Origin: Streptomyces griseomycini
GTDB taxonomy: Bacteria; Actinomycetota; Actinomycetes; Streptomycetales; Streptomycetaceae
NCBI RefSeq assembly: GCF_014203535.1
Contig: NZ_JACHJI010000006.1
Span: 434,001 to 498,000 of the forward strand
Direction: 5' to 3'
DNA length: 64,000 nt
The notes under the pieces are model-generated. The model saw only the letters and a list, made by a program, of their open reading frames with translations, ran no database searches and was not told the origin of the DNA. This document shows, piece by piece, positions 23,748 to 25,719 of this stretch (positions are counted from its first letter, which is position 1; each line of letters starts with the position of its first letter). The position numbers and the translations under genes were made by a program.

Positions 23748-24374
23748 TCACGCGTCCCCGTACGCCTCTCCGCCGAGCTCGAACCCGGCCGTGCCCGCGG
23801 TCGCGTCGGCGAGCCAGGAGCGGAAGGAGTCCACGTCGGCGTCCGGGAGGCCGATCTCGATCGTGACCTCCTCGCCGTAGCGCACGTCCCGCACCTCGCG
23901 GCCGGTGGCGCGCAGGTCGTTCTCGACCTTGCCGGCCCGCTGGTGGTCGACGGTCACCGTGGCCAGCCGGAAGCGGCGCCGGGTGATGGTGCCGAGGGTG
24001 TCCAGGGCCTCGCCGACGGCGCCGCCGTACGCGCGGATGAGGCCGCCGGCGCCGAGCTTGACGCCGCCGTAGTAGCGGGTGACGACGGCGACGACGTACC
24101 GCATGTCGCGGCGGAGCAGCATCTGGAGCATGGGGACGCCGGCGGTGCCGCCGGGCTCGCCGTCGTCACTGGCCTTCTGGGTCGAGGCGTCGGCGCCGAT
24201 GACGTACGCCCAGCAGTTGTGGGTGGCGTCGGCGTGCTCCTTGCGCACGGCGGCGACGAAGTCCTGTGCCTCCTGCTCGGTGGCCGCCGGTGCGAGGGCG
24301 CACAGGAAGCGGGAGCGGTTGATCTCGATCTCGTGCACACCCGCGCGCGCGACCGTGCGGTACTCGTCCTGCAT
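23748..24374 (-). CDS. YigZ/IMPACT family protein
   Basis: 208 aa. The N-terminal UPF0029/IMPACT domain carries the family motifs SDDGEPGGTAG and RYYGGVKLGAGGL; a C-terminal DUF1949 region (about 135-200) follows. The biochemical role is unresolved in bacteria; structural work suggests RNA or nucleic-acid interaction. The length matches E. coli YigZ. It is transcribed in the same direction as sixA upstream, with a 41-bp gap, so it may share a message. Confidence 0.9.
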   Translation of the reverse strand: MQDEYRTVARAGVHEIEINRSRFLCALAPAATEQEAQDFVAAVRKEHADATHNCWAYVIGADASTQKASDDGEPGGTAGVPMLQMLLRRDMRYVVAVVTRYYGGVKLGAGGLIRAYGGAVGEALDTLGTITRRRFRLATVTVDHQRAGKVENDLRATGREVRDVRYGEEVTIEIGLPDADVDSFRSWLADATAGTAGFELGGEAYGDA

Positions 24375-24415: not shown

Positions 24416-24958
24416 TCACCGCTTCCCGCCCCGGGGCACGGCCACCCACGTCAGCAGCGCGGCGCCGGGGGCGAGGTCGCGCCAGTCGGCGCCGCGCCAG
24501 GACAGGACGGCGACGGCGGAGGTGGGGAACTTCCCGCGGACGCGGTCCAGGGTGTCGTCCAGGCCGTCGCCGGCCAGCGTCAGGACGAGGTCCTCCAGGC
24601 CGGGGTTGTGGCCGATCAGCAGCAGCGTCTCGACGTCGGCCGGCGCCTCGTGCACCACGGCCAGCAGCTCGGGGACGCCGGCCGCGTACAGACGCCGGTC
24701 GAAGCGCACGGGCGGCGGTGTGCCCCACTGGGCGGCGGCCAGCTCCCAGGTCCGGCGGGCCCGTACGGCGGTGGAGCACAGTGCGAGGCCCGGCAGGCAG
24801 TCGGCCTCGGCGAGCGCGCGTCCGGCGGCGGGGGCGTCCCTGCGGCCGCGCGGGGCGAGGGGGCGTTCGTGGTCGGCGACGCCCTCCGGCCGGGCGGACT
24901 TGGCGTGGCGCAGGACGACCAGGCGGCGCAGCGGTCCCGCCCCGGCACGCTCGATCAT
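24416..24958 (-). CDS. sixA: SixA-type phosphohistidine phosphatase (histidine phosphatase superfamily)
   Basis: 180 aa. The RHG-type motif is VVLRHAKSARPE, with the catalytic His in RHAKS, the SixA/branch-1 form of the motif. The second conserved His is in LLIGHNPGLEDL. SixA enzymes dephosphorylate phosphohistidines on phosphotransfer proteins, including the PTS NPr protein in E. coli. Its ATG overlaps the upstream stop (ATGA, 24955-24958), so it is translationally coupled to the CysRS/MshC-like protein. That linkage is its most unusual feature. Confidence 0.87.
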   Translation of the reverse strand: MIERAGAGPLRRLVVLRHAKSARPEGVADHERPLAPRGRRDAPAAGRALAEADCLPGLALCSTAVRARRTWELAAAQWGTPPPVRFDRRLYAAGVPELLAVVHEAPADVETLLLIGHNPGLEDLVLTLAGDGLDDTLDRVRGKFPTSAVAVLSWRGADWRDLAPGAALLTWVAVPRGGKR

Positions 24959-25719
24959 GCCGGGGTCCCCAGGTCGCGGGTGAGGTCGAGGCCGAGCAGC
25001 CGGTCCGCGTAGGCGTACGTCTCGAAGCGAGCGCCGTCCGCCAGGTCCGGGGCGGTCGCCACCGCGTGCAGGACGCGGAGCACGCCGGCCGCGTCCAGAT
25101 CGTCCTCCCACGCGGCCCGCAGGTCCGCACGCACCCGGTCGGGGATGGGGCGTGAGGGCCGGCGCGCCCAGGCGGCGACCGCGCGGCGCCACCGGGCGAG
25201 GGTGTCGCCGGCGTCGCCCAGGTCGGCCGTGCCGACCCGCAGGGGGGTGCTTCTGGGAGGCGCGAGCAGGGCGAGGCGCAGCACGGCGGGGTCGGTGTCG
25301 CCGGGCGGGGCGGCGGTCTCCCAGTGGACGGGGGCCGCGGCGACGCGCACTCCGTCGGGTTCCGCTCCGTCCTCGCTCACCACGTGCAGGATCTGTGCCT
25401 CGCCCAGGCCGGTGTCCGCCTCCCGGCCGTCCTCGAAGGGCCGGACGCCGAGGGCCGCGCCCGCCGCGCGCAGTTGCGCCTGCTGCCGCTCGCCGGTGAG
25501 CAGCGCCCACACCGGCGTGCCGCCGAGCTCCAGGGCGCGCACGAGCAGGTCGGCGACGAGCAGCACACGCAGGTCCGTCGGGTCGGACCCGCACGTGTGG
25601 GCCTGGACGCGGGTCAGGCCCCGCCGGGCGGGGGCGGCGTCCACGAGTCGGCCGGTCCGGGCGTCGGTGATGCGCAGCACGAGGCGAGCGTAGGCGCGCG
25701 GGCGGTCGGACGCGGGCAT
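24955..25719 (-). CDS. Degenerate CysRS/MshC-like protein of unknown function
   Basis: 254 aa. The first 60 residues (LRITDARTGRLVDAAP then HTCGSDPTDLRVLLVADLLVRALELGG) resemble the opening of cysteinyl-tRNA synthetase and the mycothiol ligase MshC, where a zinc Cys and HIGH motif belong; here TCGSDPTDLR replaces them and no HIGH or KMSKS is present. The C terminus (about 205-250, AAWEDDLDAAGVLRVLHAVA and YAYADRLLGLDL) resembles the CysRS helical region. It is much shorter than MshC (about 410 aa). I infer a catalytically dead or repurposed paralogue. It is coupled by a 4-nt overlap to sixA. The start may be ATG 25719 or GTG 25680; the latter follows a TACGCT box. Confidence 0.6.
   Translation of the reverse strand: MPASDRPRAYARLVLRITDARTGRLVDAAPARRGLTRVQAHTCGSDPTDLRVLLVADLLVRALELGGTPVWALLTGERQQAQLRAAGAALGVRPFEDGREADTGLGEAQILHVVSEDGAEPDGVRVAAAPVHWETAAPPGDTDPAVLRLALLAPPRSTPLRVGTADLGDAGDTLARWRRAVAAWARRPSRPIPDRVRADLRAAWEDDLDAAGVLRVLHAVATAPDLADGARFETYAYADRLLGLDLTRDLGTPA

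Follow-up and report, generated by a model that had tools for sequence, protein, structure and literature searches.

Relatives of aminoacyl-tRNA synthetases (aaRS) that have turned into regulators are already known in class II, where HisZ, a HisRS-like protein of class II fold, is the regulatory subunit of ATP phosphoribosyltransferase and has HisG as its partner. HisZ is presumably not homologous to the protein described here, which we designate T, and the likeness lies in the working mode that we propose for T, that of an aaRS-like regulatory partner of another enzyme. Among the class I synthetases, the offshoots named in the cited passages are MshC, the CDPSs and CysRS* (PMC2922099, PMC9437257). 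CysRS* of Desulfobacterales is described there as a noncanonical cysteinyl-tRNA synthetase (CysRS) that lacks the anticodon domain, is active and charges SelC* (PMC9437257). Like T, it is a CysRS paralogue without that domain; unlike T, which has no catalytic motifs, it is active on its substrate. CysRS itself (TIGR00435; PDB 3sp1, 1li5 and 1u0b) shares its whole-body fold with residues 1–241 of T (Z 20.8–23.1), but T is without HIGH, KMSKS, the zinc ligands, the CP or middle region and the anticodon-binding domain. MshC (TIGR03447; PDB 3c8z and 8hfm) also has a CysRS-type body without a C-terminal anticodon domain (Z 22.1). It belongs to another lineage, however, the active site is absent from T, and T scores 26.2 bits against a family cut-off of 485.1.

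The gene behind T encodes a SixA-like protein. The targets listed for E. coli SixA are NPr, Ndk, PfkA and, in vitro, ArcB; the same passages call the determinant of its specificity unclear and report that PGAM5 requires an extra N-terminal domain for NDPK-B (PMC12934123). An aaRS-like partner, the point of difference from the pair described here, is not mentioned in those passages. The function of SixA in Streptomyces is stated to be unknown in the cited part of PMC9739823. In the open-licence PMC literature we found no description of a stripped CysRS, of a second actinomycete CysRS (CysRS2, see below) near mshB, or of an aaRS-SixA pair, and T is apparently an undescribed example among the non-catalytic aaRS paralogues.

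The window analyzed here is a stretch of 64,000 nucleotides from Streptomyces griseomycini, and the features of the locus are listed in Table 1. A preliminary description, made from the letters of the window alone, had given T a length of 254 aa from an ATG at 25719. This start is not conserved, as other loci read ATA, CTG, ACG and the like at this position, and in two loci an in-frame stop lies just downstream of it. The GTG at 25680, on the other hand, is identical in 81 of 81 sequences (80 Streptomyces loci and the window). Since the GTG is invariant and the ATG variable, T is taken to be 241 aa long. In an alignment of the 81 upstream regions, a conserved block, CGCCTACGCTC, abuts the GTG. 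It contains TACGCT, which may be a −10 box and would then imply a leaderless T transcript; the CCTGCG-like block is a possible, putative −35. The overlap of the T stop with the sixA start that the preliminary description had pointed out is present in the window, and the stop of T is contained in an NTGA in 80 of 80 Streptomyces relative loci. The frame opened by the overlapping start is that of sixA in 76 of the 79 Streptomyces loci with a sixA match. Downstream of the pair lie yigZ and sbcD.

Table 1. Features of the T-sixA locus, in coordinates of the window.
Feature	Position	Strand	Remarks
yigZ/IMPACT (UPF0029)	23748..24374	minus	PF01205, 129 bits; neighbour of the core Streptomyces locus
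SixA-like histidine phosphatase (putative), 180 aa	24416..24958	minus	PF00300; RHAKS and GHNP motifs present
T, predicted stripped CysRS2 descendant, 241 aa	24955..25680	minus	GTG start; stop TGA 24957-24955
ATGA stop/start overlap of T and sixA	24955..24958	minus	TGA of T over sixA ATG (24958-24956); predicted translational coupling, from the sequence and relatives
Codons of the predicted helical bundle, T residues 128–241	24958..25299	minus	CysRS2-type end GARFETYAYADRLLGLDLTRDLG
HTCGSDPTDLR codons, T residues 28–38	25567..25599	minus	Stands where the HIGH loop and the first zinc Cys would be
TACGCT, conserved −10-like box	25687..25692	minus	Alignment of 81 upstream regions; ends 6 nt before the GTG
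CCTGCG-like weaker conserved block	25711..25716	minus	Lies 18 nt upstream of the −10-like box; from the same alignment

The identity of T was examined by profile searches and structure prediction. There was no match to T in Pfam or, with phmmer, in the PDB. Its sole NCBIfam match was MshC (E 3e-6), and the cysS profile (TIGR00435, cut-off 340 bits) left it unmatched at E up to 10. The model predicted from an alignment of 29 sequences (pLDDT 86.9, pTM 0.88) matched CysRS 3sp1 best in the PDB, with Z 23.1 and an rmsd of 2.7 over 236 residues, and MshC 8hfm second, over T residues 1–233. All of the top 14 matches were CysRS or MshC, and the next was LeuRS with Z 16.1. The predicted model thus has the class I CysRS body fold and not an unrelated one, and the near full-length structural matches suggest that T is an entire CysRS body in shrunken form, with a Rossmann shell and a helical bundle. 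The earlier assignment of T as a degenerate CysRS- or MshC-type protein is backed by the alignment, the predicted model and the PDB matches alike.

In the genome of the window, MshC is complete (671 bits), and a CysRS is also encoded, scoring 450 bits with cysS. When 394 genomes of the class were searched with a profile from the T alignment, frames of about 450–540 aa were detected beyond Streptomyces at E of about 1e-30. The 24 fetched frames taken as intact are complete second synthetases, here named CysRS2 (L106–L112, L114–L116, L120, L121, L124, L125, L131, L136–L138 and L140–L145). HxGN and PHHE are present in all 24, CGPTVY and KMxKS in 23 and HIECSA in 21, and two of them, those of L106 (366 bits) and L120 (387 bits), exceed the NCBIfam cysS cut-off. 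As read from the tables, a full CysRS2 accompanies the canonical CysRS (CysRS1) in 16 of the 28 genomes searched with cysS; CysRS1 was whole or nearly so in those genomes, G278 excepted. CysRS2 was noted across numerous families of actinomycetes, its usual place lying between dapC-fdxA and mshB, and the tested genomes also carry an ordinary CysRS.

Both profile scores and phylogeny place T nearest to CysRS2. The T HMM gave 65–127 bits for CysRS2 (five rows tested), 24–46 for MshC (11 of 16 rows; the other 5 were unmatched), 19–27 for a third CysRS-like type (2 of 3 rows) and at most 17 for CysRS1. In a tree of 99 rows, a branch with support of 100 parted MshC, CysRS1 and the third type from CysRS2 and the eroded rows, T included, so that T falls outside the MshC clade. 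This tree took 21 of the 24 intact rows (without L112, L142 and L143) and 19 of the 27 CysRS1 loci, and omitted L113 and L161. It is therefore well supported by sequence comparison that T descends from CysRS2, and not from MshC or the ordinary CysRS, and T is very probably a pseudo-synthetase, a CysRS2 stripped of its catalytic parts. The preliminary description had held that relatives with intact active sites would speak against a degenerate protein; such relatives were found in the more distant CysRS2, which indicates where T came from and not that T is active. The third CysRS-like type (L228–L230 in G282, G215 and G463, family f17) consists of frames of 446–458 aa related to the ordinary CysRS, whose cysS match ends at position 399–427 of 466. 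A second MshC-like clade (L220, L226 and L227 in G282, G254 and G237; frames of 393–440 aa) stands well apart from the main MshC clade.

The comparison with CysRS2 also defines what has been lost. CGPTVY, HxGN, HIECSA, PHHE and KM[AS]KS were each found in 0 of the 81 core T members. The HIGH and KMSKS signatures (HxGN and KMxKS) and the zinc-ligand motifs (CGPTVY, HIECSA and PHHE) are thus gone, and the loss of HIGH, KMSKS and the middle of the protein stands as first described. Two of the 37 other Streptomycetaceae rows contain PHHE, by chance and within the bundle. The anticodon-binding domain, judged from the number of residues that follow LGLDL (22 rows), is missing as well: T ends 8 residues past LGLDL, where the nine intact forms measured continue for 57–61. 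Eight residues (D44, R48, R135, W164, R165, W171, E220 and D226 in T numbering) are retained in both intact and eroded forms, in a comparison of 21 intact and 49 eroded rows. They fall outside the lost motifs and may hold shell and bundle together.

Erosion of CysRS2 can be followed in its own chromosomal slot. In this slot, dapC-fdxA lies on the opposite strand on one side, and genes for VanW, MshB (TIGR03445, 360 bits), a flavin-reductase-like protein or CheY lie on the other. The order was seen in families f5, f7, f8, f9, f11, f14, f25, f34 and f35, with not every flank falling within every fetched stretch. Eroded copies occupy the same slot, between dapC-fdxA and VanW-mshB. Both flanks are seen in f13 (L126, L127), f31 (L130) and genus g138 of family f1, that of the window (L239, L240); one flank is seen in part of f17 (L129, L132, L139) and in genus g141 of the window's family (L241, L242). 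The T copy of the window lies elsewhere, and the CysRS2 slot of its genome is empty of it; a search of that whole genome with the T alignment found only T and MshC. The slot itself (G000:C2:281401-286200; L238, 9402-14200) is taken up by two genes, one MarR-like and one MFS-like, as read from the protein starts. In alignment the forms are graded, from complete (L107, L120) through those with broken motifs and mostly kept length (L119, L122, L128 and L123, the last with the C-terminal part still there) to those that have lost the middle (L133–L135) and short ones (L118, L139, L130 and T).

Elsewhere in f17, one further gene order is common to intact (L120, L121, L124, L125) and eroded copies, namely a helicase-like gene, an HTH protein gene, CysRS2 or its remnant, and often GNAT and acylase genes. 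A tree of the bundle only (114 columns, 80 rows) took in 9 of the 20 loci from the family's other genera and every fourth row of MshC, CysRS1 and the third type. It put the eroded copies of this order among the intact f17 ones with support of 97. The remaining eroded copies, T included, fell in another clade (97), and three changes are needed. This tree, too, sets T with CysRS2 and apart from MshC and CysRS1. The 99-row tree described above, which has 400 columns, united all 40 eroded rows (99) and attached them weakly to the intact L120 (32). Since eroded rows share gaps and long branches, this union was not used as evidence for a single erosion. When the 114 bundle columns were put to an AU test, one erosion alone was compatible with the data (p 0.226). 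With that value in mind, gene order and the bundle tree make two or more separate erosions likely.

The 180-aa protein encoded behind T passes PF00300 (30 bits, cut-off 21.7) and misses the cut-off of the sixA family TIGR00249 (28.7 vs 74.5 bits). Its earlier naming as a SixA phosphatase holds for the superfamily and not for the family; 'SixA-like' is the safe name, and phosphohistidine phosphatase activity is putative. Of 200 Streptomyces genomes, 79 carry core T, 91 carry SixA of the type linked to T and 73 carry both. The two genes are adjacent on the same strand in 72 of these; in G106 they are parted by contig ends. Matches to T under about 52 bits, the level of MshC, and to SixA under 165 bits were excluded, and core and divergent T were separated by hand. 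The co-occurrence has a Fisher p of 9e-30, a value that ignores shared ancestry. The phosphatase gene is directly behind T in 72 of the 79 genomes, and the translational coupling proposed in the preliminary description is conserved.

The pairing has exceptions. In six of the 79 core genomes (G074, G188, G183, G129, G112 and G087; loci L165 and L210–L214), T is without a T-type SixA and stays before yigZ, which is retained where sixA has been lost. T-type SixA lacks an adjacent T in 15 of the 200 genomes, and sixA follows only 3 of the 17 divergent Streptomyces copies of T, the other 14 being non-adjacent. In other genera of the family, a T-like match of at least 64 bits was found in 40 of 111 genomes by hand count. 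At 20 such loci in 19 genomes, sixA was directly downstream in 4, on the opposite strand in 1, 1.5 kb upstream in 1 and nowhere on the stretch in 10, and 4 copies sat at the ancestral slot without it. Every T copy fetched from outside the family (L106–L145) is without sixA. L003 (6759-6980) likewise looks devoid of sixA, and its T stop still reads GTGA, like a relic of the coupling site.

The pair is also found at seven further loci with different nearest predicted neighbours (L249, L250, L255, L256, L154, L156 and L159), the neighbours at relative loci being those of a simple gene caller. Its recurrence among differing neighbours looks as if it had moved as a two-gene unit. In a SixA tree of 48 rows, which sampled 11 of the 72 adjacent core SixA, all 18 T-linked SixA (11 core and 7 other) fell in one clade together with 15 orphans and 2 near ones, apart from 13 general Streptomyces SixA with support of 100. 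The strict [GA]H[NE]P motif is missing in 3 of the 18 (L249, L272 and L273, the latter two reading GHSP), so some partners of T are possibly not intact phosphatases. No T-SixA fusion was found among 276 loci. The simplest history would be one pairing after T had left its old slot, followed by moves and separations.

T very probably arose from an actinomycete CysRS2 located between dapC-fdxA and mshB. In some lineages this gene was reduced to its N-terminal Rossmann shell and its helical bundle, with the loss of the catalytic loops, the zinc site, the anticodon-binding domain and most of the middle. The stripped gene of Streptomyces left the slot and is now joined in a unit of two genes to SixA-like phosphatases of a single clade. 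We propose that T would act as a non-catalytic binding partner of this phosphatase and be co-produced with it through translational coupling. In the most likely mode, T would work in trans as an adaptor, for docking or for specificity, and deliver a phosphohistidine protein to the phosphatase; candidate targets, taken from E. coli, are a PTS phosphocarrier and Ndk. Alternatively, T might restrain the phosphatase until T meets a ligand of its own. As its motifs are gone, T is not expected to activate cysteine or charge tRNA. A protein-protein role is favoured because selection holds the shell and the bundle and because the only repeated partner is the coupled SixA-like phosphatase. An adaptor is plausible given the unexplained specificity of SixA and the need of PGAM5 for an extra domain, as stated in the cited passages of PMC12934123. 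Counted against the partner role are T copies without sixA in the core, the divergent group, the slot and outside the family, T-type SixA without T, the lack of a fusion, the weaker selection on T and the three linked SixA without the strict motif. Paired genes need not mean interacting proteins, and a role of T as partner of the phosphatase is slightly less than an even bet; we give the reading as a whole, pseudo-synthetase and phosphatase partner together, a probability of roughly 0.43.

It is also conceivable that a CysRS2 function linked to RNA or thiols survives in T, in contact with tRNA-Cys, CysRS1 or MshC, and that sixA is a mere co-transcribed neighbour. Most of the positions conserved from intact to eroded forms are in the bundle, the ancestral locus is near mshB, and T persists in lineages without sixA, all of which would suit such a role. 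Against it, T has no anticodon domain, a scan of 49 loci detected no tRNA gene beside CysRS2 or T, and coincidence would have to account for the recurrent association with a single SixA clade. The core T proteins are, moreover, acidic (median pI 5.07 and median net charge −9 in 81 members), although four of the five intact bundles tested are acidic too. We regard this explanation as unlikely.

T might also be a relic on its way out, with no selected function of its own. The graded erosion series and the patchy presence of core T in 79 of 200 Streptomyces genomes would fit this, as would the variable length of T across relatives, with inserts in the middle. The median dN/dS was 0.40 for T, about three times the 0.14 of yigZ, and 0.31 for sixA (81, 80 and 80 sequences and 2893, 3154 and 2704 pairs for T, yigZ and sixA, respectively, restricted to pairs with dS of 0.05–0.6); since the GC content makes dS difficult to estimate, the comparison among genes carries more weight than the absolute values. 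These ratios indicate that T is under purifying selection, and that this selection is weaker than on its neighbours sixA and yigZ. Against a relic stand a dN/dS below 1, invariant positions throughout T, the conserved GTG and upstream block, the high-confidence predicted fold and the kept coupling. All 81 core frames are open from the GTG and, together with the upstream block and the purifying selection, they indicate that T is more than a chance frame. The relic explanation is, in our estimate, slightly less likely still.

Two other properties of T were noted. Long inserts occur in some core T proteins (302 aa in L074, 6037-6942). Two-piece matches in 14 genomes break near model positions 104–128 in 12 and 63–69 in two, where the synthetase middle was lost. 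A lysine-poor T that evades pupylation was considered, as 64 of the 81 core members have no lysine, and rejected. Lysine-free proteins also occur generally (5 of 58 predicted window proteins of at least 150 aa; 11 of 63 predicted proteins of 200–300 aa in 20 named loci, T included), so the lack of lysine was taken as ordinary high-GC composition.

The preliminary description had suggested a cysteine- or mycothiol-sensing module. On this reading, T would still bind cysteine, an adenylate or GlcN-Ins and signal through the phosphatase. The Rossmann shell is still predicted, and the ancestor lay near mshB, the only hint towards thiols and a historical one. The pocket motifs and zinc ligands, however, are missing in 81 of 81 core members, and the retained residues lie outside them. 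The segment TCGSDPTDLR does replace the zinc/HIGH site, as had been noted, but its Cys is no conserved zinc ligand: it is unique to the window within the 29-sequence alignment, and 71 of the 81 core members have no Cys whatsoever. A sensor of this kind has no support and is very improbable. That T is a degenerate MshC, as its sole NCBIfam match and the second place of 8hfm by fold might suggest, can hardly be right, as the T HMM scores CysRS2 far above MshC, the tree places T with CysRS2, eroded relatives occupy the CysRS2 slot and the window genome has a full MshC of its own.

The preferred reading of T as a pseudo-synthetase partnering a SixA-like phosphatase supplies a Streptomyces protein that has no Pfam match with a probable origin and a predicted fold. 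A class I CysRS hollowed out stepwise, with intact, intermediate and stripped forms in one chromosomal slot, is in our judgement a rare transformation series. If T steers its phosphatase, it would offer a handle on the question of SixA specificity stated in the cited part of PMC12934123. A broader and more doubtful extension is that the CysRS2 shell has a binding function independent of its chemistry, that it was stripped independently in several actinomycete lineages, and that in Streptomyces it has become the trans-acting specificity subunit of a phosphohistidine phosphatase. If this were true, a dead class I aaRS would be a regulator of histidine-phosphate signalling.
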